From Struthio camelus (lineage: Eukaryota > Chordata > Aves > Struthioniformes > Struthionidae): a DNA stretch of 64,000 nucleotides. Numbering within the stretch: the first letter of the stretch is position 1; each line of letters starts with the position of its first letter. Below, in pieces: positions 1-54,345 of the stretch. A model generated the notes under the pieces. The model saw only the letters and a program-made list of their open reading frames with translations. It was not told where the DNA came from and searched no databases. The translations under genes were made by a program, and so were the position numbers. The stretch lies in NCBI RefSeq assembly GCF_040807025.1, contig NC_090944.1, positions 125,851,738-125,915,737 of the forward strand, in the 5' to 3' direction.

Positions 1-3000
1 CACAGCAGCCTGAAAAACTCTCCACCTCCCCCTTTCTGTTTGCCTTGGGTTGCCCTTTCCCAGACTCCAGCTGTTCTCAGGCAAAGCCGGAGGAACTGCC
101 CTGATTATCACCTTTGCTCAGATGTGGATTGGGCATTTGACTTTCTACTTACACCAGCAATTAGAAGGCCGCTATGAAAGGCAAAGTGTCAGACACTCTT
201 TGTAGGAGTTTGTGAAATGCAAAAGTGGGGGGAGGCAAGAGAGGGAGAGGAAATAAGGTCTCACCAGCAGGATAAAGATGCAACTTATCATAGATTTTGA
301 AAGAAAATGGGAGAGCAGCCTTGGTTCAAAAGAAAACACGGAAGGATCACACAGGGCAATTTAATTCAGCTACCAATGGCGTTTAATATAGATTGAAGCC
401 TCTGTTCTTGCTCCTAAAATGTAATAGTAATGGAGAGGGAAAGCTTCTGTCACAGTAAAGTGCTGGTGTCCTGCCCGAGCCTCTCCTGGGAGAAAAGCTT
501 TCATGAGACTTAATAGATTTCCCTGTGTCCAGCTCTATTAAGTATTCCAGGAGCTCACGGGACGTGTTTTGAGAAATGCCGTGCAGGCAGCTCAGAGCGC
601 ACATCCGTGATCAGCTTTAGCCCGGATATACTGGCACTGCAAACAATTACACGAGTGCTTAATTTTAAGCATGGGACTAACAGGGCTTTAAGCACTAAAT
701 GTGAAAGGCACACGTTTCTTTCTTTTTCTTGAGCACCAAGTGGGTGATTTGTGCTTTCAATATTGCAGGAGGTTGACCACTGTTTTAACATTGTTTTTGC
801 CTTAAAGCATCTTTCCTTTTTTTTTTTTTTTCTGGAAATCATTTCTACTTATATGTGCTTCATTAAGCCCCTGCGCTGCTCTTCCTTTTTTTGCAACGGA
901 ACATAATTGTTAATGCTGAAACAAGCTGCCACCCTGTACATAAGATGTTCTCTCTTTCCTCAGGGACTGCGTTGCCACTCAGATGGAAAGAATAACATGA
1001 CAGCTTGACAGGCTACGCATATGTTACAGGTTGTACCAATATAAAAGCAGCAAGATAGCACACAAAAGAGATCACGGAAAATGCAGCCTGGACCAAAGAT
1101 GACAGGCTGGGAGATCGTTTTCTGCAGCACTGGCTGATGTCAGGAAAAGCCCCAGGTGTGGCAATATTTCACTGACAGTCTTCTGCCTAGGAGTTTGCAC
1201 TATAGAAATCTCTTGCGTCTTCCCCGCTTCAGACAGGTCCCTGAGCCTGCTGCAGTGTCACTGCAAAGCCTGCTGAAGTTACGAGCATGCTTGAAGAGAC
1301 ACGTGCTGTGTGTCCCCTGTTACATGAACGCTGTGCCTGTGCTATTTGGGCACATCACCGTGCTTTTCATTTCCGAGCTGTTGTCACAGAGAGAGGAGGA
1401 TTTAGGTAGCAATGTCCTGTCCCCCACAAAAAGAGGGGATTTTTAACCCAGGCGTGGGTTTAAAAACTACCCACAGATTGCTCGCAGGTTTGTGCCCTGT
1501 CCCCCTACTGCAATACCTGCAGCTCTCTCCACCATAATGCCGGCTCTCCTGAGGCCGTCGCCAGCCCCCTCCTCATCTCCCCTAGCTGTGAGCCACAGCA
1601 CGGTTTCGTACACCTTGCTTCCATAGGAATCCAGAGCAAAAATGTGTTTGGCCTCTAAGCCGAAAAGATTAGCCACTCTGTGCCCTTAATAGATGACAAA
1701 GTCAGTCCCCCGGCTGAGGTCCCGCTCTGGCCCAGCCAGCCTTGTCCCTTCGCTGCCCCATGGGCAGCGCAAGAGGAGTGGGATGCTCTGTGGTGCAGGT
1801 TCCCAGCAGCGGGGCAGCAGAGGAGGTCCCAGTCCATGTCCACGCCACTCTGTCCCCAGCCCTGCTCTCCAAGGAGCCTCCACCAGGCACCGGGGTGTCC
1901 CCCGAACCTGGCTGGGCAGCTTGGCTCCCCGTGCTGCTGGGCCCACCAGGACTGCACAGGATTTCTCCCAGGCTTGGGGCATGATGCCATCCCCTGTTTT
2001 TAGGTAAACAGAGTCCAAGTGCTTAGGGTCGAAAGGAAGCCAGGGTTAATGCTCTTCATTCTCATGCAGAGACCAGTCCAAACGCTATCTTCCACAGGAG
2101 CAGACTGGTGTATGGATAAATGGGCTGCTTTGTTCTTCGTGGTAATAGCTGATCTCAAGGCCTTTGGCCTATTCCCCACCCTGAAATGGGGTACAGAGGA
2201 ACTGGGGAGTGAATGGCAATTTCATTCAGATAGATGCTGCATAGTCATGAGAAGGAAACAGCCAGAGATCCCCTGGCTCATCTAGCTCACATTTAAGTAA
2301 CCCATGGTGCTCTAGTGCTCTACATCCCAGCGCTGGTAACTGGTGAGTCCGTACTTTCATCTTTTTCCTCTCCTTAGAAGGCTTTTTTTTTTTTTTTTTT
2401 GGTCATGAGTGTTTGCACTAGCAAAAGGTGCCAGCCTATCCACTGCCCAAGGCAGGGATGACTAGGTGACCTCAGACCTGACATTGCTCAGGGCAGCAGG
2501 GACGCTTGACACTTCAGCCTTCCTGATGTATGAGCAGAAACCACCGCTGTGTCCCTCTTTTCACCTGATCCATGGCCCACAGCCGGACACACTCATTTAG
2601 GAGTCACCACACCAGCAGTGGGTTCAGACAGTGCCTCTGGGACAGCACCTTACCAGAGAGGACTACTGGTGACCACCTCAACTCCGGAGTGGCCAATACT
2701 TTGCTAGATTTTAAGCCGAGGAAAGGAGTCTAACACAGCATGTGGAACTCATCATCATTAGCAACACAGGGGCCAACAGTTCAGTACAATTCAAAAAAGG
2801 ATGAAACCAAATTATCACTGGTCTTCTTCAGGGGACCTGTTACTTAGATGTCCACGAGTAAGGGTCAGGGTTAATACGCTTTACCTAGGAATGGGGTGGA
2901 GGGATATCTTTCAGGACGACAGTTTCAATTTATTGCCTACACATGCTGTGGTAGCACTACCGCAGCTCGCATTGAGAGCGTCATCTCTTGCCTGTCAGAG

Positions 3001-3290
3001 AGGTCTCTAGATTTTCTTTTCAACAAAGCGTTAGCTTCAACTCTGCACAAGCTCACAGAGACATGCTGGTGGTATGCGCTCCACCTACTGATTCAAACTA
3101 GACCCTGCCTGCTTGAGTAGATATTCTTTATCACAAGCAGTCAAAATCATACATGTAACTGAGAACAGCTGTTACTTGTGTGGGCATCTATAGCAATTGG
3201 ACATTGGAGTACATTCAGAAATATTACAGATTTTTTTCCCTCCAATTTCAGACATAAGAATAACTATAAGCAAACACATGGCTATTTTAA
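1..3290. other. Intergenic DNA downstream of LEFTY
   Basis: No coding exon is recognised on either strand. In other amniotes PYCR2 lies near LEFTY, but no PYCR2 exon is visible here. The segment from about 1680 to 2000 is GC-rich and stays open in several frames on both strands, which is expected from base composition and is not taken as coding. A pure T run of about 18 sits near 2385. A single FoxH1-type octamer (TGTGGATT) lies at 123-130. Confidence 0.6.
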
Positions 3291-3299
3291 TATTTACAT

Positions 3300-3305
3300 T
3301 TTATT
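3300..3305 (-). promoter_or_regulatory. Candidate LEFTY poly(A) signal
   Basis: TTTATT on the plus strand reads AATAAA on the minus strand, about 950 nt downstream of the LEFTY stop codon. I saw no better canonical hexamer closer to the stop. A second AATAAA on the minus strand at 2929-2934 is an alternative. The implied 3' UTR of about 0.95 kb is an inference. Confidence 0.45.
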
Positions 3306-3537
3306 GTTTCTTTGAGTTTGAAAGCACATAAGACTAGAACCATATCCCTAAGTTGAAGTAACCGTAACACACAGCCAGAAAAATAAGGCCTGATTCTACA
3401 AACTATTACTCTTGAGAGTAAAACTAAGTCCTAGTATTCCCATTGACTTCAGGACTCTAAATTCGGCCTTAAAACTGTGCTAACCCCATGGTACAGGGGC
3501 CAAAAATATACTCCTCTGAGTTCTAGACAATATTTTA

Positions 3538-3650
3538 TGTACATATATATGTATATATCTATACAATACACATATACATATATATTCACATGCTATACAT
3601 GTGTGTGTGTGCGCGCGCGTATACAATATATACATATAAGTGCTTCTGCT
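3538..3650. repeat. Mixed TA/CA/TG/CG alternating dinucleotide tract
   Basis: A run of alternating purine-pyrimidine dinucleotides: TA-rich, then CA-rich, then (TG)n passing into (CG)n near 3601-3620, then TA again. It lies inside the predicted LEFTY 3' UTR if the distal poly(A) signal is used. The (TG)n(CG)n part has the composition favoured for Z-DNA. Confidence 0.8.
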
Positions 3651-4254
3651 CTACAATTCACAGTAAACACGACCTGGACAGGCATGGACAAAATCACAAA
3701 GCACCAGGCGTCTAGAATTAAAAGCTGAACCCACGCATTAGCTCTTCACCTAGCAATGATCACTTGTTTTTCTCTTTTGCCTGTAGCTGTTTGCAATGCT
3801 CTGGACTGATGTAAGTCAGAAGTAGCGCCATCAAATTAAATAGAATTAGGCTAGCGTAAGATCGGCCCAGAGAAGCATTAGGCTCCGTAGGTACATTTTC
3901 CTGCCCCGCATACGTATCTTTGTGAAATCCTGTGCTCCTCTGAGCTCGTCTGTACGGACAGTGCCTTTAACCACATCCTCTCTGTAGGGGAGCGGGGAGC
4001 ATAGGAGAGCCGCAGCCTTGGCCACTGCTGAACTTTGCAATTGGGGAGCTGGAAGTCCCTGCGACCGCCTGCCGTTATGAGAGGAAGGGGGTTAGCCAGG
4101 CACAACCTCCTCTCAGGGCACCCGGCAGCTCTGGTCGCCAGCCTGCATTGCTGGACCGCGGCAGGCTCTGGGCCGGGCTACAGGGAAGGAAGAGACTCAG
4201 TGACATCTCATTTTTCCCCGCAAGAGCTGCTGGGCCCTGGCAGGTTATCTGCAC

Positions 4255-4594
4255 TTACACCAGTGCCATATTGTCCGTAACGCAGCTGCACTTCTCGACG
4301 ATCATGTTTGGAAATTCGGCCACTTCTATTTCAGTGTAGTTGTCCCGCTTGACAAGGTACATCATGGGGAGAGGGGAGCTCTCCACCACGGCACAGGCTC
4401 TGTCCCCGTAGCCGAAGTGACGCAGCAGGCTGCCGGGCTGCAGGCAGCCCCCCGAGCACTGGTAGGCCTGGTACCCTGCCGGCTCGATGACCCAGTACTG
4501 CGTCCACGTGAGCTCCCGGAAGTTGATGTAGTGTTTCTGCCGGCAGCAGGTGGACTTCCCCTTCACGGTGTCCTCCTTACAATCGCCAGGGCCC
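4255..4594 (-). CDS. LEFTY2: LEFTY coding exon 4 (cystine-knot domain)
   Basis: This exon encodes residues 250-362, the whole TGF-beta-like domain, ending CSCVTDNMALV with stop TAA at 4255-4257. The acceptor is GCATGCAG|GGGCCC, preceded by a T-rich tract. The C-terminus ends eight residues after the last cysteine, an extension past the knot that is usual for Lefty and absent from most TGF-beta ligands. Confidence 0.95.
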
Positions 4595-7436
4595 CTGCAT
4601 GCGAAGGAAACAAAAAAGAAGTGCCTCTGTTACACGAAGTCAGGAAGGTGGGGGAAATAATCCCTGCTGTACAGGCGGGCCCTCAGTCATTAAGCTTGGA
4701 CCTAGCTCTTGTTTAGTTTGAACAGTCAAACAACAAAATGAGGCCAGCAAATCTGGGAAGAGGAAGGGTATGATTCAGCAGCAACTCCTAGCTACTCCAG
4801 CAGCTTACTTCTGAAGGCAAGAGCTGCACGTCTTGGGTTTGGGTTTGCACACACCATACTATAATTTAGCAGCAAAGTTACATCAGAGACAGCAGAGATT
4901 TAGGTTTCATACATACCCATAGTCTTCCAAGTCGAGGGTATAAAGCACCAATTCAGGTTTGCCTAAGGCTTTATCCCTGGGGTCCTGAGAGGTAAAACGC
5001 ACAGCTTTGGCCATTTCCGAGGCATAGCTGCCTACTCTTTCTCCTTCGATCCAGACCTCCAGAAGCATTGGCTCCCGCCTCTTGTTTCGTAGCCAGTAAT
5101 GCACAGCCTGCGTCACGTCAAAGTTCTTCCAGCCCGACTCTCGTATGGGAACCAGCCTGTGCAACAAGGGCTCAGTTGAAGAAAAAAGCCCATCAGGTAA
5201 TGCCTGGGCTCACAGCACTATTGCCACAGAATAATTTGCTTCCTGTAGCTTGTCACATGCCCTGATTACGTGATAATTCTTGCTGAGCACTCTGGGCAAG
5301 CAATTAACTCATAGCTCTAAAAGAAACACACAAAGCACATGAATCGAGCAGACACTGGAGGGCTAAGTAAAAACCTTTACATACACTCATGTCAAGGGAT
5401 TCGTTCACGGTGGTACTGAAATGCAGCCGTGCAGGATTATACGCAGCCGCAGCATTCTTGACTACAGCCTGGTAAACGTGACTTTTTCCCAGCTCCTCGT
5501 GTCCTAGCGGTATTAGGGCCATAAGTTTCTACCCACCCAGAAAATTTGTGTGATGTCGAATCCTGCCTTCAAGGATTGCAAAACTTTCACAGAGCTCAAG
5601 GGTACAGAATCAGACCCTTTTGGTATAATTTACTTATTTAAAATGGCTAGTGAAATGGCCAATAGAAAGAATACCAGCAGCCAGTAACCCACTTGAGGTA
5701 GAGAGTAAGAGATAAGTGAATCAAACGGAGGTTTTTAGAGAGGAAGCCCTAGCACTACATGGCATCATTTGAAACAGAAATACATCATTTCAATGAATCA
5801 CTGTATACTATTGTCTTAACCTCACTATCTGCTCTTAAGGATTCAGTCTGGGTTTAGAGGCTAGAGAGCCTGATTCTACAGACATAACCACATCAGCCTG
5901 ACTGGAGGCACAAACACACATGACAGCTTGAACCTGGCCCGGAAGACCACACCCCATAAGCTGACACTCCCTAAGCTACAGTCCAGCCTTCAGGAGGGGT
6001 CCCTTTCTTACCGAGAGTCTATCAAGGAGGTCCTGTTGGTCCCATCGAGCTGCCGTTGCACCCAGTACACACTGACTCTAGCGTTGGAGACCGGCCTGTG
6101 AGACTGCTTGGCAGGCAGGTTTGTCCTGTCCAGAGGCTTTTTGAAAAGCTTCAGTTCAGCCATTGTCACTTCACTGTTTTTAGGTATTCTCCCCTCCATG
6201 TCAAAGACGAGATTCTGGCGCGTGGTATCAGAATAGAGGACTTCTCCTGGGATGTCTGTGTGTATTTGGAACAAAAAAAGAGAGCCTGTCATTGCCATGA
6301 GCAAAGCCCTGACACTTCATCCGCAATTATCATCACAACACACTCCTTCCATGTTCCCAAGATGATCGCTTGTGTCAGAGTCAGGCACTAAACACACCTT
6401 TTCTAATGCATGCTTGAATCAATGTCTTGCAAATGCCCTAATTCTTCTTCTATGTATGAGTCCCTGCAACGTGGAGACAATGGTAAGAAATAGATACAAT
6501 TCACCCCAGAAGGGAACAAACACTGAAAAGTGTGCATCTCTTTGTGCCGCTGCTGTACATGAAAACAGAAAACTGCACCAAGAGCAATGGAAAACTGTTT
6601 TCATTAGCTGTCCAGAATGTTACGTACACCTTCTGAAAATGAAGCAAACTTTAAGTGCTCTTGTACAGACACTATTATTGAAAAAGTGAGGCTGATTTTC
6701 TTGAGGATATTTTTCTAAGAATTAAAAAAAAAAAGACCAGGGAGAGTGAAATAGCCTCAAAGAGGTGATTCCTGTAAGAATGACAAGATGTTCTGGAGTT
6801 TTGACCAAAACCTGCAAGGTCTGCACTTCCTACTGACTTTTTTTTACATTTTTTTCCCGCTTCCCAAAATGTTGCCTGGGTACGAACACTCCCCTACCAA
6901 GCTCCAGTAGCAGCCTGCTGTTTGTGACTGTGGGGCTGCCTCTCCTGGTGCGAGGAGTTGCTAGTGCAGGTTATTCTTTAAGCTGCTATAACACGCACCT
7001 CTTCTACCCAGCTGAGGTTCAGAACCAGTCCCAAACCTCATTTCTCCTGTGGGTTCGCCTTTGCCCACCCTGCGGCTTGGACGGGAAAGCATGGGCACCG
7101 AGGTGGGAGTTAACTTCCCCTGGCTACAGCACAACCACTTTGATGCACGACAATCACGGCAGCAATGTTACCTGCATTGCCAGGGATTCCCCTGAGGATG
7201 CCAGCCAGGCTCGGCAAAGCTCTGCGCTTCACCCTGTGGCGCTTCAGCAAGGAGATGTATTTGTTCTTTATGTGGTCGGGGATAACCAGATTCATCAGGT
7301 CTCTCTTATGAAGTCTGGGGACCTCGGAGAGCCCCAGCTGCTTTAGCAAAATCTCCTTGACCCCTTCCTGGGTAAATGCTCTGACCGTGATGAGCAGGCA
7401 GAGCGCGCAGAGCATCTGGGCGAACCTCACATCCAT
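4255..7436 (-). CDS. LEFTY2: Left-right determination factor (Lefty), Nodal antagonist; four-exon gene
   Basis: Coding exons are 7172-7436, 6012-6255, 4917-5156 and 4255-4594, all with GT-AG junctions. The joined frame is 1089 nt (362 codons plus stop), close to the usual Lefty length of about 366. Residues 4-20 form a hydrophobic signal peptide. A furin-type RVKR site is at residues 68-71. An N-glycosylation sequon (NRT) is at residue 162. The C-terminal cystine-knot domain begins at about C255, with C266/C267, C296, C300, C317 and the terminal CSC at 352-354. Only one cysteine (C317) stands where dimeric TGF-beta ligands have CC. The long central helix is also shortened; both are Lefty hallmarks, consistent with a monomeric secreted inhibitor. 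Family knowledge: Lefty binds Nodal and its EGF-CFC co-receptor and restricts Nodal signalling at the midline and in the left lateral plate. Birds are thought to have one LEFTY gene, so the choice between LEFTY1 and LEFTY2 is a naming convention. Confidence 0.96.
4917..5156 (-). CDS. LEFTY2: LEFTY coding exon 3
   Basis: This exon encodes residues 170-249, including LVPIRESGWKNFDVTQAV, a block conserved in Lefty and related propeptides. The acceptor is TTGCACAG|GCTGGT and the donor ACTATGG|GTATGT. Intron 3 is 4595-4916 (322 bp). Confidence 0.95.
6012..6255 (-). CDS. LEFTY2: LEFTY coding exon 2
   Basis: This exon encodes residues 89-169, starting D-I-P-G-E-V-L-Y-S, typical Lefty propeptide. 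The acceptor is ACACAG|ACATCC and the donor CTCTCG|GTAAGA. The exon ends after two bases of a codon. Intron 2 is 5157-6011 (855 bp). Confidence 0.95.
7172..7436 (-). CDS. LEFTY2: LEFTY coding exon 1
   Basis: This exon encodes residues 1-88: signal peptide, N-terminal propeptide and the RVKR cleavage site followed by RALPSLAGILRG. The ATG at 7434-7436 is followed by GAT, so the +4 base is G. The donor reads GCAATGCAG|GTAACA. The exon ends after the first base of a codon. Intron 1 (6256-7171, 916 bp) shows no other gene. Confidence 0.95.
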
Positions 7437-7562
7437 CCTCCTCCGTCAGCAACACAGCCGCCCACCCGGCAGGGATGAATGGGTGAGTCTCCCCGGGGCT
7501 GCTCTTGGCAAAGATGCGGTCACAGGCTGCCTGAGCAGGACGGAGGTCCCCTGCGCCGGCGT

Positions 7563-7569
7563 TTTATAG
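7563..7569 (-). promoter_or_regulatory. LEFTY TATA box
   Basis: The minus strand reads GCTATAAAACG, a near-perfect TATA box about 130 bp upstream of the ATG. It predicts a start site near 7535 and a 5' UTR of roughly 100 nt. The flanks are GC-rich, which suits a core promoter. No start-site data can be read from sequence. Confidence 0.75.
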
Positions 7570-7739
7570 CCAGCCTCGTCCCACTGGCACAACAAATTCC
7601 ACAAGTGGAGACGAAGAAGAGGACTTAAAAGGATCACTCCCCCATCAATAGACACATGGCAGTTTAACACCTTCACGTACCGCAAAGTTAATACAAGGAG
7701 GTTTAGGAGAGCTTCCAGATTCCTTCTCGGCAAAGAAGC

Positions 7740-9780
7740 TTCTGCTCTTTTTTAACTCCCTGTAAACTTTTGCCCAGAGATCACTCCTAAGTGATCGGTG
7801 TCTCATATTCAGTCTAGGTCAGAGAGGAAACATCTGCAGAGTGCATTGCTTTATGTACTGCACCATACAATTCATAAAGGAAGTGTCAATCTTTACCGCA
7901 GGGGACTTGCTACCTAAAATAGCCAATACCAATCAGAAGAATAACGCTTCAGCTGAAAGTCCATCTTTATGGTAGACATTAAAACATCATTTAAAATCTT
8001 TTTGGGGGAAGGTACCTCTCTGATCTCCGAATATTTGTATCAAGCATATGAATCATAGCAGTGAATCACAGCACTCGGATGGTTTATGGCCTTTTACACT
8101 GCTTCTGAATGATAGAACGCGGAAGATGTACAGGCCTGACGCTTTGGAAAAATGTCCCATCACTCTTTATGGATTCCTGAGGGTTTAATAATACTTGTGC
8201 TTAAAAGAAGATGGCTTTATACCAAGGCAGATCATCTTTCAGTGAACATGAAAAACCACTCTGCTTTTGAACAATATGGAAAAAAAGTTTTGGTATTTTG
8301 AACAGTATCAGTAACCACAACAGACAGCAGTCTCTGGGGAGCAGAACTGAACTGGAGCCTGGGTTTGGGGGGGGGGGCGTGTTTGGTTGCCTTGAAGTCA
8401 ACCTTTAAGCTTTAAGTTCACGCCCTTCGCTTTCCTGGCATTTGCTGCCATGAGATGTGGAAATCTATTTCTTGAAACTAACCCCAGGAGAAGGGAATTG
8501 AAAAATAAAACTTAATCAATACAAATCTTAAGAAGCATGGCACCTGGTGCAAATTCTCTGGGGCAGCAGTAACACAATGTGACACTGATATTTGTTTCAA
8601 GTATACATACAAATATGTATACATACATACCTGAGCCTGAGCATACACACAAATGTCTTCCTTGTCAAAAGATTTTCCAATTTTATATGTCTCTGTGAAT
8701 GAGTCAAAATTGGAGCCATTTCATCCAATCTCCATGTTGAATGGTGTGCCCTTAAAAAAGTGTGGCCTGAGGACCCAGGGTAATGAACTTGTACAAAAGC
8801 ACCCCTTTGTGGTTCATCTCTCATTAAAACAAGAGCAAGCTGAATCAGCCTGCTCTGTAAAGAGGAGACAACAAAACCTTCTGAAAAAGTCTTAAATCCT
8901 TCCGGCACTGCCCATTTTGTCTTCTTAATCCTTTAACAAACTTCTCTCCTTAAATATGCCAAAGACTCCATTAGATGTTAAAGGGGCACCTCATTTGGTT
9001 GAATTTTAAGGCTACAATGGAAACATAATATAGGCTACAAACTAATAGATATGTGCATGGCCCAGGGCAGTATCTGGATCACAAATTCTCCCAAACCTTA
9101 CACTCTTTGATCTTTCTCTTTTCTCTTTCTCACCGTTCTCTGAACAAATCAATACTTTGTGTTATATTAATTTCCAATACGCTAATAAGGAGTGAAAAAT
9201 AGCTACTTTACTTGACTGCTATAACTTCAACTCATGTCAAAAATGCCTACTCTTCCAAAGAAGATGGAAGATTTCTCACGGAAATCTTTGTGATTCTCTC
9301 TGCCCCCCTTGGGAAGGCTACGTAGGCCCTGCTCTTCCCTCCGAGCTGCCTCTCCAGCTAAATGGCACGCTACTGATTCGCCTGCTCGCACCCTGGGATG
9401 TGATAAACAGAGTCACACAAACTGCTGAGGCTTGGTGCTGACAAACTTTGCTTCAGATACGCTCTATAAATGTCTCCTAACTCTGTTCCAGCAACAAAGT
9501 TGGATAAGTTTTTGCAGTGGGGAGAGTCATTACCTCCTGTAAAAAATTGCAGTCCATGTATTTGTCTCGTATTAAACAGGTCAGAAAACCTGCTCCTGAA
9601 ACCTTTATCCCTCCAATGAGTCTTTATTCTGGCAAGTAGTCCAACTGTTTAGTGACAGCTCTTCAAATAAATATGATTACATGAAATAAAAATCCCTGAT
9701 AGCTCCATCAGCACCCAGCTTTTCTGGATCCAGAAGTAACTTCTCTTGTGGCTGATGTCTAATCTATTAGGATGAAGACT
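7740..9780. other. LEFTY upstream intergenic DNA
   Basis: No coding exon is recognised. The segment contains a G run at about 8369-8379 and AT-rich stretches. No FoxH1-type octamer was found here by eye. Confidence 0.5.
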
Positions 9781-9793
9781 CTTTGCTGTCCAG

Positions 9794-10012
9794 TGTGTAT
9801 TAGAAGGTGATTTATGGGCTTCACACACAAAATAAAATTATTGAGCAAACACAGTTGAAGCTCAGCTAAGAAAAAAACAGAGGATGTGGATTGTAGGCTT
9901 TTCACAGGAGAGTGATTATCTGGTCCAATTGGAGGATTTGCCTTTCCCCCTTTGTCATGCAAACAAGAAAAGTCAGGAATTTTATAATAGCTCTTTCTGT
10001 GTAATGTGTATT
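9794..10012 (-). promoter_or_regulatory. Candidate Nodal-responsive LEFTY enhancer (FoxH1 motif cluster)
   Basis: Three octamers fitting the FoxH1/FAST consensus TGT(G/T)(G/T)ATT lie on the plus strand at 9794-9801 (TGTGTATT), 9885-9892 (TGTGGATT) and 10005-10012 (TGTGTATT). A fourth (TGTTGATT) is at 10492-10499. All share one orientation and read AATNNACA in the LEFTY direction. The cluster is about 2.3-3.0 kb upstream of the predicted start site. A GTCT Smad-type half site lies at about 9757. Mammalian Lefty2 is known to be driven by an upstream asymmetric enhancer with paired FoxH1 sites, and this block is a positional counterpart by inference. Confidence 0.5.
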
Positions 10013-10499
10013 GGAACCTACCTGGTACTTTCAAAATGTCAAACAGAGGATTTAAAGAGGCTGCAAGGGATGAAGAATAAGCAACTTATAGGTTTAATAA
10101 AAGCCAGTACTTAGTGGAGAGAGAATCTATGTTTAAAATTTCAATTTAGTTTCAAACAGTTCTCTAAGACATTGTCTGAGCATATCTAGGCAATGATTTT
10201 TGGTAAATAAATCTAATGGGTTAAAAGAGAAAGTGTGAAAGGCTTAGCCTAATTATATAGCTATTATCCTGAGAAACAAGAATGTTTCAAACACATTTGC
10301 AGTGTGTGAGTGAGGGTTTGAATTTGTCAAGATTTGTATTTCCGTAGACATAATTATTCCATACAACAATTGGGCCCACATTAGAACAGCCTGTGCTTGA
10401 GCGATGTTGAAGGCCGCAGTTTTTGCATGCTCCATGAAATGCCATGATCTGTGTACCAGGTTTATTGTATAGAGATGGGACCACACCTCCATGTTGATT

Positions 10500-13400
10500 T
10501 CAGTCTGTTTTTTCCCAAAAGTCAGGGTTATTTGAATCTAGGAGCATGGAAATAAAACTAATAGTGTTACGATCCAGGTATAAACATTCCCAATTTAAAG
10601 AAGAATTCAGGTAGAGGTTCTGTTTGACCATTTCTAGTATTTTCTTACTTTTTTCTGTCTTAAGCACACTGAGTTTCACATAGTTACCACATAAACACAG
10701 ACTAGACTACTCGCATGAAGGGCTGGGCTAGAGGTTTCAAAAACGGGAATGCTATGCATCAGGGCATGCTCTTCTCATACTGCCTCAACAATAAACCCCA
10801 AGAATCTCCAATCAGTGCTTTAAAATTAATATTCCAATCAGCATTTTAAACCCAAGCTACACATCTTTAATCAGGATTTCAGAGGCATCTTTGGCTTCCT
10901 TCTTGACTAGCACAGTCCATGCCAGTGCTGGGACTCCTGCTTCTCTGCAGGGTCCAGTCCTGTGTCAAACAAGTCCAGACTGCGAGCGTCAGCCCCCAGA
11001 GCCAAAAGGAGCCACTGAGCTCAGTGTGGGAAAGCCACCCAGCTGCCATCAGACAGCAGCTAGTTTTCACTCATTTTGGATTTAGACCTAAATTCTAAAT
11101 AGCGACGAAGACAAAGAACTTCCCATTTCCTCCAGCGCAGTATGAGAGTGAGGTGTTACCTGGAGCAGGAGTCGGTGTTCCCTGAGCTCACAGCTCAGCC
11201 TACCCTCGCTGCAAGCACAGCTGTGGGACCGCAGCACAGCACTGGTGCCTCAGCCAGAGAGGCAGCCTCTCTATTTTGATGGCGCCTTTACGCAAGAAGA
11301 AAAGGGCAGTGAATGTCTCATCCCCCCCATACGGTTTCAGTGCAGCACAGACTGGGCAGTTTAGTCCCCTACCTCCTTTGGGTGGTTTTACCTCTTCTGT
11401 GCACTAGCTGCTCAATGGCCCAAATGAAAACTACAACTTCTTTTGTTTAGGGTTTCTTTTTAGTTGGATCAGCAAGTTGCTCTGGCTCACTGCCCAGCTC
11501 TTTCTTAAATTAGCAAATACTGAATCTAAGAAAATTCACTTACACTCTCTGGAAGAGGCCACGAAAACATTTAATCAAAAATGATCTTAGTAACTTCACC
11601 TAATCTCTCCCAAGAACAGAAAGGGCTGGACAGAGTTTCCTTACGAGCCACTCTGGCCAGAAAGGTCTCTAACAAACTATGCAAAGCACTTCTGACGCCT
11701 GGAATCAGGCACTGGCTCCAGTTCTCAGAAATGACGAAGCAAAAAAACTAGCGGCAAGCCCTAAGTCTCCTTTTTTGATGAAAGGATGAAAGACCTTCAC
11801 TTGAGAAATTCCTCCACCACTAAGAGCAAGTGAGCAGGTCACAGCGTCATCATTGCGTTCGTTTGCCACCTCATCTCCAAACACCACCAGCCTGGTCTGG
11901 AGATGCTCCAATCTGTTCTATATCGCTTCCTTGAAAATGGTATACGCCTACTGAAAGACACTGGCAAATTACCTTCCTAGGGTGGTGGCTTTCCTTCCTC
12001 CTCTTCTTTTACAGATAGCTACTCTTTCATTAGGGTATGAATAGCTGGCACAGTATAAAGAACCAGAATAACAGTACCCAGGACTCGCTGGGGACAGTAT
12101 ACCTTGCTAGAGTTTGCATGAACGCTGCCCATGGCCTCAGCCTGCTCTGCAAGATTCCTGCATGGAAGAGTTTCATAAGCTATGGTCGGATAACATGAGG
12201 CATCCAGCTTTTGTCTGGCTCCCAGTGCCAGACCGAAAACAGCACCGCCACTTAACGCAAAGTGCTGATCTGCTATAAACTCCGTCTGCTGGTTCTGATT
12301 TGTTCTAAAAATTTGACCGTGTGATTTTCGTGCCAAAAGGCTTTATGCTAGATTGGGTATTGCCTGGCTTCTCTCTCCTTCCGTGTGTACCTCCATGAGT
12401 CCCCTGCAGCGACCATAAACTCAAAAAAAACTGACTTTGCATCTGTATTGTCTAACCTAGCTAATATGATTCTGGGACACAAAACTTTGTGTCTCATATC
12501 TAATCTGAATCATGTTTATTCTGCTAGGCGATATGATAGCACACAGTTCTCATAGCAAAGACACTGCAACCACAGCCTCAGTCCTGCCAGCAGAGGAGCC
12601 GACTTCAGTGGGAAGTTTTGCGATACAGACAATTGTCTGCTTGATCTATACAGAAATCATTCAACTCATTTAATCTAGGCAAGGACATGAGCCTGCTCGT
12701 GGGGAATAAAAGCTTTCCCTCATCACCAGCCTACGCCAGATTTGAACTGTTCCCTTATGTCAGCAGCGTGTTTATTCCACAAGTTATCCAGTAGAGTTAA
12801 GAACACCATTTTATTTTTGAGAAGTCGCAAATCTGGTCTGATCTTGAGCGCAGTTATACTATTCACCCAATTCTGCCACTGTGTAACTTGTGTTGCGTCG
12901 ACGTGCAGCACACCTTCCATAGGCAGACTTCTGCTTTTACTTAAGGCTCAGACAGAGGACTGCCTGTTTGAAGAGAAACGGACAAACCGCCCAGCGTCCC
13001 ACCATGCCCTTGGTCAGCCGATGTCAGCTGGCTTGCTCACAGGGTTTGTGTTGGCATGTTTGCAAAGTGCCAGTGTTCTGGCAGAAAAGAGCTTTCAAAG
13101 TCTTTTTTTTTTTTTTTTTTAAACACAAAACCAAACACAACTGTTTAAATACAGCTTTTTTCTGTCCCTTCAGCAGTCTCCTCCTCACTGCCCTACTCTG
13201 GGTCTTGTTTGTAGCTGGGAAAGAGGGTTAGTTACCACTCTCAAATGGCGACAGAAAAGGCTGCAAGCAAGAACACTGACATTTGGCAAAAGCGATCATA
13301 TCAAATCAATGCTTTGGCCAAGCATATGGCCCTAAGTTGGCTAGCTTTACGCCGTTGCCTTTATATTATTGAGGAACGTCCCAATAATTGAGGAATATCT

Positions 13401-13590
13401 GTATTTTGTAAGAGCAATACTTAACTTTCTAATATGTGCCTATGTAACTGCCTAGTTACAAACGCTGACTTTTTTCTTCTTACGGTTGGGAGTTTACACC
13501 GTAAAAGCTTTGTCAGCCTTTTTTTTTAAGAGCCTATTTTTTCCGACTTAGAGAACCCAACTCCGGAGGAAGCAGGGATGGAGGGGCTCT
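10500..13590. other. Intergenic DNA between LEFTY and TMEM63A, first part
   Basis: I see no coding exon, RNA gene or clear repeat apart from a T run near 13103-13122. Open frames here are short and have no splice or family support. Confidence 0.5.
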
Positions 13591-14180
13591 GAGAGGCTGC
13601 CCAGGTGCTGCCTTCCCCCGGAGAAGCTCCGCTGGCACAGCGACGACTGCTGCTGAGCTGGGTTTCGGCAAACACGCTCCAGCGAATGTCACCGCGACAG
13701 TTCAAGGCGAGACCGCCTCGGCTGCCTGCGCCGAGCACGGCCGGCGGAAGGGAACGCCTGCGTGAGCGAGGCCTCAGCCATGCAGCACAGCCCCTGGCTG
13801 AACGCTGGGGAAGGTTTTAATGCAGACGGAGCTCTTGAGAGAGCTGGGCTCGATGCTGATACAGCTTACGGGCTGGGCCGGCTCTACAGACTTCTGAAAG
13901 TTGGGTGATGTCCTGGGCTGGGTGCCGGCGAGGTGGTACGGGGCCAATGCTCTGCCAGCGGGCTGGGACTGCACACGCCGTACTTGGCAGCGCTAAGGAA
14001 ACCTGCAAGCTGCTTCCCCTCCTGTCCACCTCCAGCTCTGCCCGCCCGTCGTTGCGTCAACGTCAAGAGTTGCGGCCGTCCCCACTCTCCCAGCAGAAGC
14101 CGCTGGTAGAGACACAACAGTGGCAACGTTGCGCGCCCGCAGGAACAGCCTGCGTCATTTGCCGGGTGGCTTTGCTATAG
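13590..14180. promoter_or_regulatory. Isolated CpG-rich block
   Basis: CpG density is high. I count about 19 CpG in roughly 150 bp around 13621-13770, at about 64% G+C, far above the neighbouring sequence. It lies about 6 kb upstream of LEFTY and 10 kb upstream of the TMEM63A promoter and matches no recognised first exon. Open frames on both strands are explained by GC content. It could be an orphan CpG island, an unannotated promoter or an enhancer. Confidence 0.5.
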
Positions 14181-17100
14181 CGGGGCAGAGCTCTGTTAGC
14201 TCCGCTGCAGCTATACTAGAGGCAGCCCTGCCACTGTAATCCCCTTTGTTTCCATACCCAGAAGCACCCCTGGTGAGGCTGAGCACACACAGCACTCATG
14301 TCCTGCAGCACATCCCACACCCCTTATAAACTCTGTGCCAAGGTCGTGTAGCAAATGGCCTTCCTATAATTCAGAAATATCCGTGCTTTCCTGTCACACT
14401 AAAACACTTTGAATACTATTATTTTGTCTGTGGCAGTGAGTTGCCTGGCTTAATTACGGATTGTATTTTCTTCAGCTATTTATAACTCTGATGACTTTTG
14501 CTTCACTGAATAGTTTTTCCTCTTCTGCTATGAAAAAGAGGAAATTAACCACTTTTTTTCCACTCAGATAGATATAGAAAGAATAACACTATATCCTAGC
14601 AGCTGTGATTTATTTCTATTACCAGGAGAAGCTGCAAGGGCAGAAAGATTAGCAACTATATGTCAATGAAAGTTGGAATAATTTGCATTACTAACTTTGC
14701 TGGAAGGTGGGTTGTTTTTTTTTTTTTCCTGAAGGCCAGAAATAAAGATGAAAGGCCAAGCGGAGTGAGTTCTAAAACACACCTCTTCCCCTAAGCACTG
14801 TGAGCTGTCATGCAAAATAGTAACTTTTGACTTTAGTGCAAAAAAGAAAAAGGGCTGTTCCTTGCACTGAAAATTACAAAAGCCAGTGCAAGATTGTAGA
14901 AAATAAAATTAGGCCATAATATGCACAGAGAAGACAAGCTGGAACTGAAAAATACTTTAGATTTTACTAATTTTGTACATCTAATAGACTGCAGATTAAC
15001 TGCCAAACAGCTTCCGTTCGCCCTCACTGAGCTATTTAACATTAACCTGGACAGTGCCTTAGCAAATATATCAGAACAAAAAAGATATCCGCAACAGCAG
15101 GAAAACGAGCTAAACTACTCACACAGTTGTTTTCCATCTGTAACATCTGCTGCTAAACTGCCTTTTTGGCTATTAAGTGTCAGCAGGTTTTACACTGTGG
15201 AACCTGAATGTATCCAGTTTCAAAATAATTACCCGCACACATTTTTAAACTCGATGTTAACAGCATATTAACTCCACAATCTACAGGATGGGGAAGTGGA
15301 ACTCTTGAGAGGATCCAGCAACAGCCCCAGGCCTGCCTGTCCGAGCACCGAGGGAGCTGGGGCAACGCAGCGGAGGCACGCCTGGGAGGCTTTCGGAGGG
15401 GCAGGAGGTTCAAGGACAAAACAATCTCCTTCGCCACTATATTCCCTCATCTTGATGCTTAACGTTTGTTCTTTGAAAACAAAAAAGACAGGCTCCCCAT
15501 GGGAATTTTTTCTTTGTCTTCAGAAAGTTCTGCCCTCTCTTCTGGGAATGGCTTTAAAGGGCTTTAGAGTAAAAAGTATGTATTTTAAAATATTTTATAT
15601 CTATCATGAGAGTGCAAATGATTAACATTAACTCCTCTGGGAAAAGCTAATGAGCTGTTTACTATTTATCCTGATTTATTACTTATGCTGTTCATGCTAT
15701 TTCCCTTCTGTTTAGATTGTGTGTTCATATGGTACCCTGCTACACTTCTGAGAGTTGTATAAATAATAAAGTACAAACAACAAAATAAACCCTAAATTTT
15801 CTCTTGCCTTCAAACAACGCTGCAATGTTCAGAAAGGAGAGCGTGTGGACAGAATGCTTCTGCTCAAGCGCTACAACAAAGCCGTTTGCACTGAAAATAA
15901 ATATTTATATTAACTTTATATTGGTTTTGTAACTTTTTGTATGTTATTGCTTTTTAATGAAACAAGAACTCAAAGGGAAAGAACTGAAGAAAACACAGTT
16001 CTCTGTGTATTTCATTCCAAAACAGAACACAAAGGGGCATTCTACTTCATGGCACAGGTTAAATTATGCAATTTCCTGCCCTGTACCCATATCTATGCAA
16101 ACAAAGAGTATAAACTCTTGGATTTAACATGGCCCTTAAAAAGAGTAAAATAAAGCTGTGTGACCTGACTAGTTTTAATCCTTTTAGCATTCATACTACA
16201 GGACCCTGGGAGATGCATCATGTTCATTTGATTTTAAAAGGGAAGTCCACACTTTGTCAGGCCACTTGAAGCGTGAAACACAAACTTCAGAGTTATTTTT
16301 TTCCTACCTAACCATTTGCTTATTCAAATGCATTAATCCAGGAACGGCCAACATTTAGTCTGCCAGCACAGGGTTCCAAGTAGCAACCAACAGCATTTCT
16401 GAACCTTAATTCTGGATTCAGCGCACGATTCTGCAGGAAATGCCATACATTCGAAGATGATATCTAAGCTCTCTGGGCAGAAGAACCATGGTAAAGATAT
16501 GGTGACTAAAATTTGCTCCATTTATGCAGCATGGCTGTTACTACAGCAGTTGCCAATAGAGAATCCAGCGCCTTCTGGCAAATCATACCCATGGAGATTT
16601 TCAAAGGCACAAAAGGAATAAGGAGTCCTTTTTCCATTGACTTTAGGTAAAACTTGGACGCCCAGTCCCATTCTCACTTTTTATTCTAAAAGGGGATGTA
16701 AAGTATTTTACTCCGGTGACAGCAAGCCTAGAAATAACGAATTACTACAATCAGAGCAGAAATGCGTATAATCTGGGAATTCATTTGAAATACTTACTCA
16801 GTTTGACCTGATCTGTTAGAATCCCTCAACGGCAGACTACAGGAAAAGGGCGTTTTCAATAAAGTTTAGGTCATGCAAATCCCATGCATAAAATTGTCCT
16901 TGACTTCAGTGAAAATCCTGATGTACAGCAGACTTGGAAGACAGGCTCTCAAAACTCTTCAGTGGCTGCACCGCTTGATTTTTCTCAGCCATTGTGATAT
17001 GAAGTCCACCTACGCATGGGCTTCAGTATGTTCCCACACAGGAAAGTGCTTAAACATATGCTACCCCAACAGGAAAATGCTCAGGGTCATAATGGTGTAT

Positions 17101-20100
17101 GAAAATATTCTATTACCGGGGCTTGACCTAAAACTGATCCAGAAACTGCAGCAACTGCAGAATGCAGTGGACTTGCTTCCTGAGAAAAGCAGATGTGAAC
17201 TGGTTCCTTAATGTAATTGCATTCCCAAGAAAAGTTCTCACAGTCATAACTTGAATAATAAGTTCAAGGTCTTACGCTGACATACCAAACCCTTCTAATC
17301 TTCACTGGAACTGCAGTGCGAAGGAATTATGATCAACCCGGCTTGCCATTCCCCACAGCAGTCCGTAATTTGTGGCCTTAAACACCAGCCTGGCTGATCT
17401 CCGGGCTCCATGTGCAGCAGTGCCAGTTTAAACCTGCTTTCGCAGCTGCATCCATACAACCCTCTGGGGGCCAGTCCCGGGAAACTGCTCAGAGAACGAT
17501 CCGGGTAGAGTAAAAAAAAAAAAAAAAGAAAAAAAAAAACAAGGTACTATCTTGTGAAGGCAGGAGTAGTTTACTCTGGTGTTGCCATTGGCGATGGATG
17601 ATTCCCTCCATCCTGGAAGCAGTCATACTCCAGAGGCTCCCCAGAGTGGCTATACCTTTTTACAGAACCTGTTTTTAAAGTCCTCTCAAACTAATTATGA
17701 TCACCTTATAACCTGGCATGTAATCTGAATATAAAACATCTGCTTTACTGAAACTGTACTGCATATTAATAAGAAGGGAGAGGTGAAAAGATTTGAGCTC
17801 TCTCCCCACTTCTGTCCCTGACTCAGTAAAACGACCTTGAGCAAACTGCCGTGGCCAAAATTTTCAAGTCCATATTTAGACACCAAAATAAACAACCTGA
17901 TTTTCAAAGGCGCTAGCCAACCGCAGCTTCTATCAACAAAACTCTAATCACCAATGGACTCTAGAAACTTACTGTACGTTAAACATCTTAATAAAGCAAG
18001 CAATATACCTCTTCCTCTCTGTTACTGCTTACTTACAGGGAAGAAAGTTTTTCTCGTCCATTGACTCACAGATCCATAGTTTAAACTTGGTTTACACTGA
18101 TTACATTACTTTCCCCTTTTACACAGATCACAAAGCAATGTTAAACATGCTGCGTACAGCTGGCAGAGATGCAAGAAATACCTTTATATCCTCTGCTTAC
18201 ATTTCAGAGGAAAGATGGAATAGAAAAAACAGAAAGATTCAGAGAAGGTAAGATCATCGTAAGAAAGGAGAGACAGGAGAAAGGAAAAATCAGGAGGAGG
18301 CAGTAAGCTACTACTATACAAACAGGAATGAAAGAGTGTATAGGGAAGGATGAGAACGGGAAAGGCAGGAGGTACTGTGAAACAGCACATTACAGGCAAT
18401 ACATCCAAAAGATGATTACATGCTAAGGAACGGGCAGTATTTAGGCAACTCTTCTGCTCCCCTACAAGTGGGGGGGCCAGTAAGTGCCCAGCAAGGACCC
18501 ACATGCCCACCACTCCCACGGTGGTGCGTTATGTTCAAAGGAGCCAAGTCACTGCTGCAGCCCTGACTTGTAACACTGACCTCCCTGGCTTTTTACAAAA
18601 TCAAAATCTAAAATTAACAGATCAAGCCTATTTCTAATGGCTGCATGGTAAAAATCGTGAGTCACACAAATCTACAGAGACAATTATTGACACAAACTCC
18701 TAGGCAGTACAAGGAAGCTGATAAAAGTGTTACAGACAATCCTCGTTTTGCTGCTTCTGGTTTGCTTTGAATTAACCTGAGATCAAAACAAAAGCAAAGC
18801 TCTTTGAAATCTTCACAGTCTGCACGAAATTTTTTTCATCTCTAAAAGCAGGAGTGGGAAGGGGGAATTCTTGCCCAAGGAAGATAAAGATCGCTCATTT
18901 TAAAAGTCCTTTTTCAAAAATTATTTAATCTAGATTTTTATTTCAATATATTATTTTAGTTAATTTAGTTATTTACAATTAAATTATAACCACCTATAGT
19001 AAGACTTAGGCTCATGACACTTTAAAAGTATTGCATTTTACATTTATAAACATTCAAGCAGTGTGCTTGATACTGAAATGTTAATGGTAGAGAAGGTCAT
19101 GGCTAAGCCCTTGGAACCCCGTTCTTAAGGACAAAAGCTTTGGATCCCACTGGATTCTTTTGTAGGTACAGAGAGAATAAAGCAGACTGACCAGTTTAAT
19201 GAGTATTTTGCTTAAAGTTGACAAACTGATTAGTCTTTGGGGAAAAAAAAAAAAGTAAAAACTAGTTTTCCGCTTCTGATCTATGAATAAAAACAGGATT
19301 TGAGAGGTCAGTTAACAAATGTGACTTTTAATCCATCAGAGACTCCAGCAAAGCCTGCGGTCTTCACCCTCCAATGATTTAGACTACAGGATCTCCTGGA
19401 GTGTTTTGTAGCTCCTGTTCAAGCCACCACCAGCTTTCTTCTCAGTGGAAAGCCGAAACGCAAAGCAAAGACACTAATGTGTGTCCAGGTCTGGTCACAG
19501 CACTCCTGCAACAAGAGTTGTTTTCTGCAGCATCAGGACAGCTGTGGAGCACAGAGGCAAGCACACTAGCGCTCTTTGCTAAAGTTAACATATATTGTGT
19601 GCAAGAACAGTAAGACATTACAAGCTGTAAGTGGTTTGATACTTTAGATAAATATACCTGCTTGCTGACTCACCCAAAGCAAACAGGTCGTATGGCCAGG
19701 TGCTGTCCTTTTCAGTGGAAGGGACCAGATCTTGCCACGTGGTTTCTCCCTCTCCTTTTCTCTCAGGGAGCTGCCTTCCTTTAAAATGTAGTGCTACCCT
19801 AGCTGTGCATGAAATCCCTTCAGCCTCTATTTATGCAGGCTTAACACACAGATAGTCTGCATTAGTAGAATATAAACATTCAGCAAAACAGTGAAGTCAT
19901 CCAAGTTTCAGCCTCAGTTTTGTCCTAGTCCTTTTGCCCTCGTTCTAGTTTTGTATCAAAGTTTGTCATATCAACAACAGTTTCACTTCAACGAGCTAAT
20001 AATACATCTAAAAATCCTTTACACCAGCAGAAGATTCTCCACAGCTGCAACTATCAGCAAAACAAAAGTTTAAAACCTTACATTGCACACACGTGAGTGA

Positions 20101-23100
20101 TGAGGAAGTCTATGCTGGGGTAAGGCACAGGGCCAAAGTTTTGCCTAGACAGGCCTATGGCAAGACTTTGGCGGTTGTTACAGCTGTTTTTGGCAGCATC
20201 TGCAGTGCTGGGTTACCAGTACAGAAACCTAGAAGTACCCACAGGGACTGCTCTTAGACATAGCCAGAACGATCAAAAACAATGAGTTCAATGCGCCAAG
20301 TAGAGCAATTTTAAATCAGGCAACTGATTTAGAATCAGTTTTAAATGCAAAATGTTGTGATAAGCCTGCTTTTTTCCTCCTGTACATTTCTCCTTTACAT
20401 TTCAGTATTTCTATGTTAAACTGCAGTTATTTGAGCATTTCAGTACAATTCCCGTTTTCATTTAAACACAGCATGACAAAAATCATGACAAAAATAAATT
20501 GTGTTAAAATAACCAGTGCATCATCCACCATTTCCTATCCAATACAACTGTAAAAGAAAAACAAGGGAAATTTCTATCATATATAATTACATATGTTTGC
20601 TTAAACATTTTGTATAAATGTGGTGAATTCTCTTGAATAATAAAAGTACATTCCAACTTTAATGAAAGACTACTTTTTACTTTGAAAATCAACATGTTAT
20701 CCATGAACGGGAAGCAACACTAAGAAAAGAACTAGGAACTACAAAGAGAAAACAAGTGTAAATCTGTTAATTTAAATCAACTGTTGCTGCTTGCTTGTTT
20801 GTATTGTGATTAAAAGAGCTCACTTAAGTGTCTATCCTGTTCTAGATTCTTCTAATTGTTTGTTTTTGTTATAAACATATAAACGCTCAAATCCTTCAAA
20901 GGAAAACTCCATAATGCCCACATTAAGTCCTTTGGTATATTGAGACCTGTAAACAGATTGCTAGATGAAAGCAAAGATTAAGAGGTAGCAATGGGCTGCC
21001 AGGCTAGAAACCTGACTTAAATCCATTAAGATACACTTGATTAGGCAGATATGTAAGGAACAGCAAGCTGGGTTGACGCGTTTCTTCAGAGAGCTGCAGT
21101 GGTGAAAACTCTGCAACCACACCCAGAGCTGGCACGTATGGTAAAGCACCAGGCCACCTGCTACCCAGGGTCCCGAGACTATTGATGTCCTGTTGGGCGT
21201 TCACCCATCAAGGGAAGTCCTGCTGTGATAAATCAAGCTGAAAGTGACAGCTGAGTTCTTCAGCCATAAGGTCATTTAATAAAGTACCTTTGCCTCAGGA
21301 TATAACTCACTTGTACGGGGGAAGAGTGGCACATGTAAGTGTAAATACTCTGCACGCTTGTTCAACTCGGTGCTAAAGAGCCGTCAAAGGGGATATGGAA
21401 CTTGCGAAGTACAGTAAAGACAGAAGAACTTTAAGTTTTGTTGACCTGCTCCCTAGGTCGTGACACTGGATTTCCATCTGCTCTAGCAATGTAATTAAAC
21501 GTTTGCTAACTAATGACAGTATGCGGCTTTTGTCACCAAAAGAACAGACAGTGGTAAACAAAACCCTATTTACAAGAGGTAGGGAGGAGGGAAATGTGAC
21601 TCTGCTGCTGAAATTAGAGATAAACGAAATCACACCAGTTAGCTAAAGAGCCTGTCTAGACAGAGGAAGAAAAAAACAAATGACAAAAGCTTGATGCTCT
21701 TCTCGTGAGAAAGAGAAGGAAAAATGATTTCATAGCCTGGCAAAAGTCTTCAAAATGAAGATCTACTGCAATGTGAAGATTACTGAACAACATCTGTTCT
21801 ACACTACAGAATAAGATAGTCTAGCCACAGCAAGGCCTCCTTTATTCTGAACCAAAAAGAGACAAGAATCTAAAGTACAAAAGCAGCTTATGAAACCAGT
21901 GAGCAAACCAACCAGGCAGATTTGGGCTCTAGAAGTATAAAAAGTGCAAGGCATACACTAAGGCCTCACCCACATGGGAGGTCTACTCTGCTACATGTAG
22001 CTACATGAATAAATGCAGTTACCACAGTAAAAGTGATTTTAAGTATTCTGCTTCTAATTTCTGTTGTGAAATAAACTGTCCACACAGACAGTTTATTCCA
22101 GGAGAGCCAAGAGAGAGTAATTACTCTACTATACTCATGTCAAAATTTTTTCCCAACAACCTGGCCCTAAATAGGAGAAGGCATTTTTAAGCTAAAATCA
22201 TTAGCATCGTTTAACAACAAATGTTATTTGAAGTTTTATTCCAGCAGTGAGTCTGGACCACACTGCTTTGAGCTAAGCGCTTCTATGCCAATTTCCAACT
22301 AACGCAAATGTTTATGGCCAATTAAAACCCCAAATTATCTACAGTGCAGCCGCTAGATAAATTGAGTATGAAATTATGTTTTGAAATGTCTCTTAGTTAC
22401 TGCAGGTGACTAGGACTTTTTCCCTTTTTGCAGGACAGAGCGAAGGTGAGGAAACGCACAGAACCCACGAGCAGTCACAGCCAGCTATACGCTGAGGACA
22501 CTTTCCTCAAAAGTGAGACAAGGATTTGACAGAGAGAAAAGCAATTTTTCCTAAAAGGATTCATACAGTGTTGAGGAGCGGGGCAGAGAGTATGCATGCA
22601 TGGACTTAAGAAATACGCACAGCGTGAATACACAGGGGACAGTACCTACAGTGTTGAAGATGGAGAGAGAGGGGCAGGATCATCAGGACTGTCAACTGGA
22701 GGAGATGCTGGCTTTTTGGCAGCTGGGGTGCTAATTTCCTTTAAATATAAAAATCAACAGATGACGGGGTACTGGCCTGACGTTTTGATTAGTAGACCTC
22801 CTTATAACAAGAGACTGAATCTCGCAACGCCCTGATGCCTTTGGTTGTTCCTGGAGTGGATTGCTGCTCTGAAACATCACAGCTGCTTCATCTGTGAGAC
22901 TGGATGCTGGGTGTAAATCTTGTACGGCAAGCATCCTTCCTGCCTCCCTCTGAACAGTCACATTTTCATCATCATCATCTTCTTCCGCAGAGGCCTGGGG
23001 CCTCTGATTGCCAAGGACAATCAAGTCAGTCATGGGCAGAGGACAGAAAAACAGGAGGATGATGTTGGTTAGCAGGGCAGGGTATCAAACGATCACTGAT

Positions 23101-24040
23101 AGCACACCAAAATAAAGGGCAGAGAAACGGAGGGCGGTAGGGCCTTGCTGCACTGCCTTTCTGGCCTGTTGGCTAGCAGCAATTCACTTCCATAGAGGAA
23201 AGGACGTCCTCGTGCCTGACTGGAAATTGGTTTCAGCCCAGCCCTACCACAGATACATTAAGCTCAACTTGCCGGGTCTCATTTTTTCCAGTCTACCAAA
23301 TTTGAATACTATTTCTCTCTTTATAGGTGTGTGGAGACAAGAGGCTTTGAATATTTCATGGAGCATTCATATTACTACTATTACTTATTTCAGAGTTAGA
23401 TCTGTCTTCGAGTGTGGCCTGCTGCACATCAGGCCTGCATGCTTGCTCACTCTAGCAGCCTGGGACCTGTGAAATCTTGCCGCCTCCTTGGACCCTCGCC
23501 TTTCTCCTTTTCTGCTCTAAAAAGCTCATTTTGGATCCGATTACTTAGGAAGTTCATTGCTGATGCAACTCAGAGAGGCATAAAATCGTTTCCTCCAAAC
23601 TAGAGAACTGTAGCTCACACTATCCTAACACTGTAACGGAGAAACCCCCAAGTAGTTACACAACCCTTCATTCTTCAGTACAGATTTTGTCTTTAGGATT
23701 CAGCATAAAATTTTCATAGATAAACTGTGAACATCTCAGACTGAGTGGTGGAATCCACTACTGACGAGATTTCAACAGTTACACAGAAAGAAAACTTGGC
23801 TCAAGATGTTTTAAAGGCCACTCTGGTACACACCAGCCTCCAGCTCAGCAGCTTGGCTGAGCCAGCCACGGGGGGGAAACACAGCCCCTCACACGGCTCA
23901 CAGCTACGCCCGCAATAAAATCTGACTGCTACTTTCGGCCGACTGCGTTCCCCAATTGCCACGTAATATTCCTGGCACCATTAAAAAAAAAATAAAAAGA
24001 GCAAAAGAAAAATAACGGGAACCCACTCCCCAATTATTTT
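14180..24040. other. Intergenic DNA between LEFTY and TMEM63A, second part
   Basis: About 10 kb without a recognised gene. It includes A-rich tracts at about 17513-17540 and an AT-rich block at about 18900-19000. A 300-bp minus-strand frame at 22731-23033 contains a run of acidic residues from a CATCAT repeat and is not convincing as a gene. Confidence 0.5.
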
Positions 24041-24329
24041 AACAGAGCCTCTCTTCCCTGAGGGAAGCGTTTCAGCAGAACAAGGACAAAAGGGCTACGG
24101 ACAGCGGCACCCCCGTTTAAAAACGAAACAAAACAAAGGCTTCCACCGCCTCGAGAGGGCAGCACGCAGGCTACGGGGCTCGCAAGCGCTGGAGGCGGGG
24201 GAAGCAACGGCCGCGGCCGTTGGGCTCGCGGGGTGCCCGGCCGTTGGGCGCGCGCGGTGCCCCGGCCCGACCCGGCGGCCTCAGCCCCGCCCGGCGCAGC
24301 GCGTCCGGCCCAAGGGCGCATGCGCGGCG

Positions 24330-24444
24330 CCCGGGACTTGTTGTTCGGGCTCGTCAGTTCGGGGCGGGGCCGCCCCGCCCGCCGTAAAGGCCGTGTGAGG
24401 ACGGGGCGGGGCGTGACGTGACGGGGGAGAGCGCGCCGGTGCGG
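24330..24444 (+). other. TMEM63A: Probable TMEM63A non-coding exon 1
   Basis: The donor CGGTGCGG|GTAAGG at 24445 lies inside the CpG island, just after the NRF1/GC-box/CRE cluster, and would join the acceptor at 25888. The 5' boundary is approximate because the start site cannot be read from sequence. Confidence 0.5.
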
Positions 24445-24485
24445 GTAAGGGGGTGGCGGCGGCGGGGGGGCCTGGCAGCCGGGGC

Positions 24486-25898: not shown

Positions 25899-54345
<28,447 letters not shown>

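Follow-up and report, generated by a model that had tools for sequence, protein, structure and literature searches.

A candidate Lefty asymmetric enhancer core with three FoxH1-type sites upstream of the ostrich LEFTY gene

Three FoxH1-type sites grouped within 219 bp upstream of the ostrich LEFTY gene form what is probably the avian equivalent of the Lefty asymmetric enhancer (ASE), a reading of the sequence to which we assign a probability of roughly 0.6. The sites lie in a stretch of 64,000 nucleotides of Struthio camelus DNA, the whole of which was analyzed and is called the window here. The first-pass annotation had proposed a block of four octamers in one orientation as the Nodal-feedback element of this locus. 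That proposal retains the support of the identity of LEFTY, the class of the sites, their spacing, their position, and a reptilian precedent, whereas neither the complete four-site block nor the common orientation of its sites is strong evidence for it. The three-site core, which the annotation had not singled out, is a stronger candidate than the four-site block, and the grouping of its sites is likely to be nonrandom. The features concerned are as follows.

9794..9801, + strand: FoxH1-type site TGTGTATT, GT class, with a gap of 83 bp to the next site
9885..9892, + strand: FoxH1-type site TGTGGATT, GG class, with a gap of 112 bp to the next site
10005..10012, + strand: FoxH1-type site TGTGTATT, which with the trailing GG reads TGTGTATTGG
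9794..10012: candidate Lefty ASE core, three TGTGKATT sites (AATMCACA in the LEFTY sense) in 219 bp
10492..10499, + strand: TGTTGATT, TG class, 479 bp past the core
7563..7568, − strand: TATAAA box, likely LEFTY promoter
4255..7436, − strand: LEFTY coding region, four exons, 362 aa
7436-7172, 6255-6012, 5156-4917, and 4594-4255, − strand: LEFTY exons, with ends placed from splice signals and reading frame

The four TGTKKATT octamers originally reported at 9794, 9885, 10005, and 10492 were all recovered, each on the + strand, and a scan of both strands between 7437 and 11000 yielded no further match, just as had been claimed. They lie 2358 to 3056 bp upstream of the LEFTY ATG (7436); from the TATA-like box, their upstream distances are 2226, 2317, 2437, and 2924 bp. 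On the LEFTY strand, the octamers read AATACACA, AATCCACA, AATACACA, and AATCAACA, respectively. Three of the four, all inside the core, belong to the FoxH1-selective class TGTGKATT. The GG-class site at 9885 (TGTGGATT) is one of three in the 64-kb window, and the third core site together with its trailing GG (TGTGTATTGG at 10005) is one of two TGTKKATTGG matches in the window; the GG extension belongs to the FoxH1 motif (JASPAR). A published rule for ASEs, derived from Nodal, Lefty2, and Pitx2, calls for two AATMMACA sites in any orientation with 30 to 200 bp between them (PMC2627943). Both gaps in the core (83 and 112 bp) fall within this range, giving two consecutive pairs. Taken alone, the spacing rule is weak and of low specificity, since two other pairs in the window conform to it (22627/22752 and 27497/27604) and 437 of 815 letter-permuted motifs produce a pair at this spacing somewhere in the window. 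The octamer at 10492 is of the TG class, lies beyond the 30- to 200-bp range, and is not needed for the core; hence, we reject the four-site block as a single unit and regard this site as probably incidental.

The grouping of the core sites was evaluated against several controls. When the 14 TGTGKATT matches of the window are placed at random (which, like all uniform-placement P values given here, assumes independent sites), a triple in 219 bp arises with a P of 0.012 window-wide and of 0.0018 when only the 10 kb upstream of the gene is considered. Both values are optimistic in that the sites were already known when the motif class and the span of 219 bp were picked. The site list of the window contains no second triple of this kind. 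Local Markov sequences of orders 1, 2, and 3 contained a TGTGKATT triple in 1, 0, and 0 of 1,500 cases, and none of 829 letter-permuted motifs gave a comparable triple, whether the 10 kb or the entire window was considered, although this test is flattered by the permuted motifs being scarcer than the real one (mean of 6.3 versus 14 matches). For the wider motif TGTKKATT, with its 28 sites placed at random, the triple has a P of 0.093 window-wide; among 815 permuted wide motifs, 6 gave a triple in the 10 kb and 33 gave one somewhere in the window, with the same advantage from scarcity (mean of 16.9 versus 28).

As for the cluster of four, the sites themselves are real, but their unusualness had been overstated: random placement of 28 sites brings four together inside 706 bp anywhere in the window with a P of 0.075. 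The value is 0.026 if all four are to lie on one strand, with three quarters of the sites on the + strand, and 0.012 inside the 10 kb upstream of the ATG. Among whole-window Markov sequences, such a group appeared in 0 of 150 at order 2 and in 2 of 150 at order 3, neither of them with all four sites on a single strand, and among local 10-kb Markov sequences in 0, 2, and 7 of 1,500 (orders 1, 2, and 3); random placement is the fairer control because the Markov sequences contain fewer sites than the real sequence. Permuted wide motifs gave a group of four in 3 of 815 cases in the 10 kb and in 22 of 815 window-wide. The set of motifs used in PMC9634164, which does not include TGTTTATT, has 19 sites in the window, 14 of them on the + strand; for this set, likewise picked after the sites were known, random placement yields a P of 0.017 in the window and 0.0023 upstream for the group of four and of 0.029 and 0.0045, respectively, for the triple. 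By themselves, the four-site cluster and the wide-motif triple are marginal window-wide.

Underlying these figures is the frequency of the motif. The earlier expectation of one match per 8 kb is true only with equal base usage; the window contains 28 TGTKKATT matches, about one per 2.3 kb, whereas dinucleotide shuffles contain a mean of 13.97 and a maximum of 23 per 64 kb (100 shuffles). The roughly twofold excess over the shuffle expectation extends across positions 1 to 64000, with 21 matches on the + strand and 7 on the − strand, half of them (14 of 28) in the first 24 kb and the other 14 beyond. Given that 21 of 28 are on the + strand, agreement in strand means little (four randomly drawn matches agree with a P of 0.29), and the shared orientation adds little as evidence.

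The alternative that survives best is that common AT/TG-rich words have come together here by chance, with the true LEFTY enhancer lying elsewhere, for instance in an intron, in the 3′ flank, or at a more distant upstream position. We consider this somewhat unlikely. It can draw on the match frequency of twice the shuffle mean, on the window-wide P values of 0.075 for the four sites and 0.093 for the wide-motif triple, on good single sites elsewhere, such as TGTGGATTGG at 123, and on the lack of Smad motif enrichment. However, the TGTGKATT triple, with a P of 0.012 window-wide and 0.0018 upstream, has no second instance in the window, and it stands upstream of a known FoxH1 target gene.

Smad motifs were not enriched in 9694-10112, where CAGAC occurs 0 times versus 0.92 expected, AGAC 2 times versus 2.72, and CAGA 6 times versus 5.74; both forms of the 5GC Smad motif are absent from the same interval. 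Neither the T-box motif GGTGTGA nor the Nkx2 motif (CAAGTG or TAAGTG) occurs in 9694-10112; Nkx2 input acts at Pitx2. A slight excess is seen in this interval for GATA (2 versus 0.34), a T-box half site (1 versus 0.34), and the octamer-like ATGCAAA (1 versus 0.38), which is no evidence, as 17 partner motifs were examined. With respect to the Smad counts, CAGA boxes showed no closeness to ASEs in PMC2627943. A repeat origin of the block is unsupported: when 9500-10700 was compared with the window, its sole match with an E value under 0.06 was itself, though an old element present as a single copy in the window would escape this comparison. The repeats that touch the block, within 7450-15000, are 18 nt at 9953-9970 and a 17-nt inverted arm at 10324-10340, and no tandem array was found near the block. 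Rfam gave no matches at gathering scores. A 20-base probe of the third site had no match in viral_contigs, which is uninformative on birds, and a LEFTY protein match at one locus in viral_contigs (47 columns, 43% identity, with no DNA match to the window) was rejected as chance.

That the gene downstream of the core is LEFTY, as called earlier, is upheld by both its domains and its protein matches. The 362-aa product contains a TGF-beta propeptide and a TGF-beta domain (Pfam), and among the best 120 of 284 protein matches, the top one is the left-right determination factor of Rhea pennata (95% identity over the full length), with identities of 85% to the tinamou Eudromia and 81% to Crocodylus. 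Bird entries among these best 120 of 284 matches bear the names LEFTY 1 and LEFTY 2 but do not separate clearly into two groups, which suggests that one bird gene may cover both mouse Lefty roles. Transcription of LEFTY would start near 7535. Two further matches lie in and around the gene. A TGTGTATT match at 6259 (stretch 6256-6266) adjoins the acceptor that ends LEFTY intron 1, and the splice signal itself may account for this match. At 123-132, about 4.1 kb past the LEFTY stop codon, TGTGGATTGG is a strong lone FoxH1-type match.

The other gene recognized in the window is TMEM63A, on the + strand, with Pfam hits near 30.9, 36.5, and 46.0 kb and a best PDB match to CSC1-like protein 1/TMEM63A; a CpG island at 24.0-25.0 kb is its presumptive promoter. 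About 2.2 kb separate the core from the LEFTY promoter, against about 14 kb between the core and this island. LEFTY is the nearest gene found by full-frame Pfam scans, which favors the reading of the core as a LEFTY element; the scans covered the − strand at 1-4200 and 11001-25000 and the + strand at 10001-64000, in addition to LEFTY itself and two open reading frames on the − strand beyond 25 kb, and would let a gene without a Pfam domain escape. LEFTY and TMEM63A are arranged head to head in the ostrich window. Human TMEM63A and LEFTY1 lie on the same strand, so an inversion may separate birds from humans at this place. Between the two ostrich genes, 13501-14000 is CpG rich (GC content of 0.61, CpG observed/expected ratio of 0.73) and has no Pfam match on either strand; it is possibly the promoter of an unannotated transcript. 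Across 16000-28000, the base skew changes sign at about 24 kb, with A exceeding T from 16 to 24 kb and T exceeding A thereafter, as if leftward transcription also started from the CpG island.

If the core is a Lefty ASE, the following mechanism is proposed. Nodal signaling would phosphorylate Smad2/3, FoxH1 seated on the three AATMCACA sites would recruit the Smad complex, and the assembled Smad/FoxH1 at the core would increase the transcription of LEFTY from its TATA promoter, at a distance of about 2.2 kb. The resulting LEFTY protein would block Nodal and thereby complete the feedback in the left lateral plate; the same LEFTY-Nodal loop would probably also run in the streak, node, and midline. 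It is a prediction that FoxH1 binds the core and that the core acts as a Smad-dependent, left-sided enhancer. That a single compact three-site element serves all Nodal-responsive LEFTY expression, in the early embryo, the midline, and the left lateral plate, is unlikely; in the mouse, these tasks are split between Lefty1 and Lefty2 enhancers. Were it true, the ostrich core would reflect the condition that preceded the mammalian duplication.

A related alternative accepts the core as a Nodal/Smad element but places its action mainly before or outside left-right patterning, in the epiblast, primitive streak, node, or midline. The mouse provides the grounds for it, in that the Lefty2 ASE overlaps an embryonic stem cell enhancer (PMC11676945) and the FoxH1 enhancers of Lefty1 act at E3.5-E4.5 (PMC5686177); moreover, FoxH1 sites alone would not encode sidedness. 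Nevertheless, the same Lefty2 ASE is also reported to drive Lefty2 expression in the lateral plate (PMC11676945), such that both uses may hold, and no sequence feature separates early from left-sided use. We judge a mainly non-asymmetric use to be quite unlikely. A generic forkhead enhancer (FoxA/FoxC/FoxF) in place of a FoxH1 element is highly improbable, for although the canonical TRTTTRY occurs twice in 9694-10112 against 1.09 expected, there is no TGTTTATT in 9600-10600 and the core sites are all TGTGKATT, to which FoxH1, unlike other forkhead factors, binds (as TGTG(G/T)ATT), with FoxA2 selecting only TT sites (PMC9701222).

Should the ASE reading of the core be right, it would supply a 219-bp, three-site target for site-by-site mutation in the chick, by which the Nodal-LEFTY feedback loop could be tested, and it would add a basal bird lineage to the amniote ASE comparison. 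The gain is modest, as this kind of element is already known and was to be expected. No chick Lefty enhancer assay was found in the open-licence literature, and among the papers listed there, PMC9634164 is the only one whose title or abstract concerns a sauropsid Lefty enhancer.

Among known systems, the stem cell expression of mouse Lefty2 depends on a region of 1.9 kb, located about 3.7 kb upstream of the gene, with which the ASE overlaps (PMC11676945). Like the ostrich core, the mouse Lefty2 ASE is upstream, within a few kilobases, and has FoxH1 gaps of 30 to 200 bp (PMC2627943, PMC11676945); the ostrich core differs in having three sites rather than pairs, in lying at 2.2 to 2.4 kb rather than about 3.7 kb, and in being a candidate predicted from sequence. 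For mouse Lefty1, two FoxH1 enhancers are described, a proximal one at about −1.5 kb and a distal one at about −10 kb; each contains two sites, was examined in transgenic mice by mutating them, and is active at E3.5-E4.5 (PMC5686177). These resemble the ostrich core in their upstream FoxH1 sites, whereas the distances differ and the ostrich element, in contrast to the mutation-tested ones, is a prediction. The position of the core is comparable to that of the mouse Lefty enhancers. The ASEs of Pitx2 and Nodal likewise use FoxH1 clusters for the response to Nodal, but they are intronic (PMC9634164). The closest precedent in print is from reptiles: ASE-like FoxH1 clusters are reported upstream of Lefty in the softshell turtle and the gecko, with other turtles being similar, and the chicken is among the species drawn in Figure 4 of that study (PMC9634164, 2022), so that the idea of an upstream sauropsid Lefty ASE has already been put forward there. 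Like the ostrich sites, the turtle and gecko clusters are composed of the AATCCACA, AATACACA, and AATCAACA types and are situated upstream of Lefty (PMC9634164).
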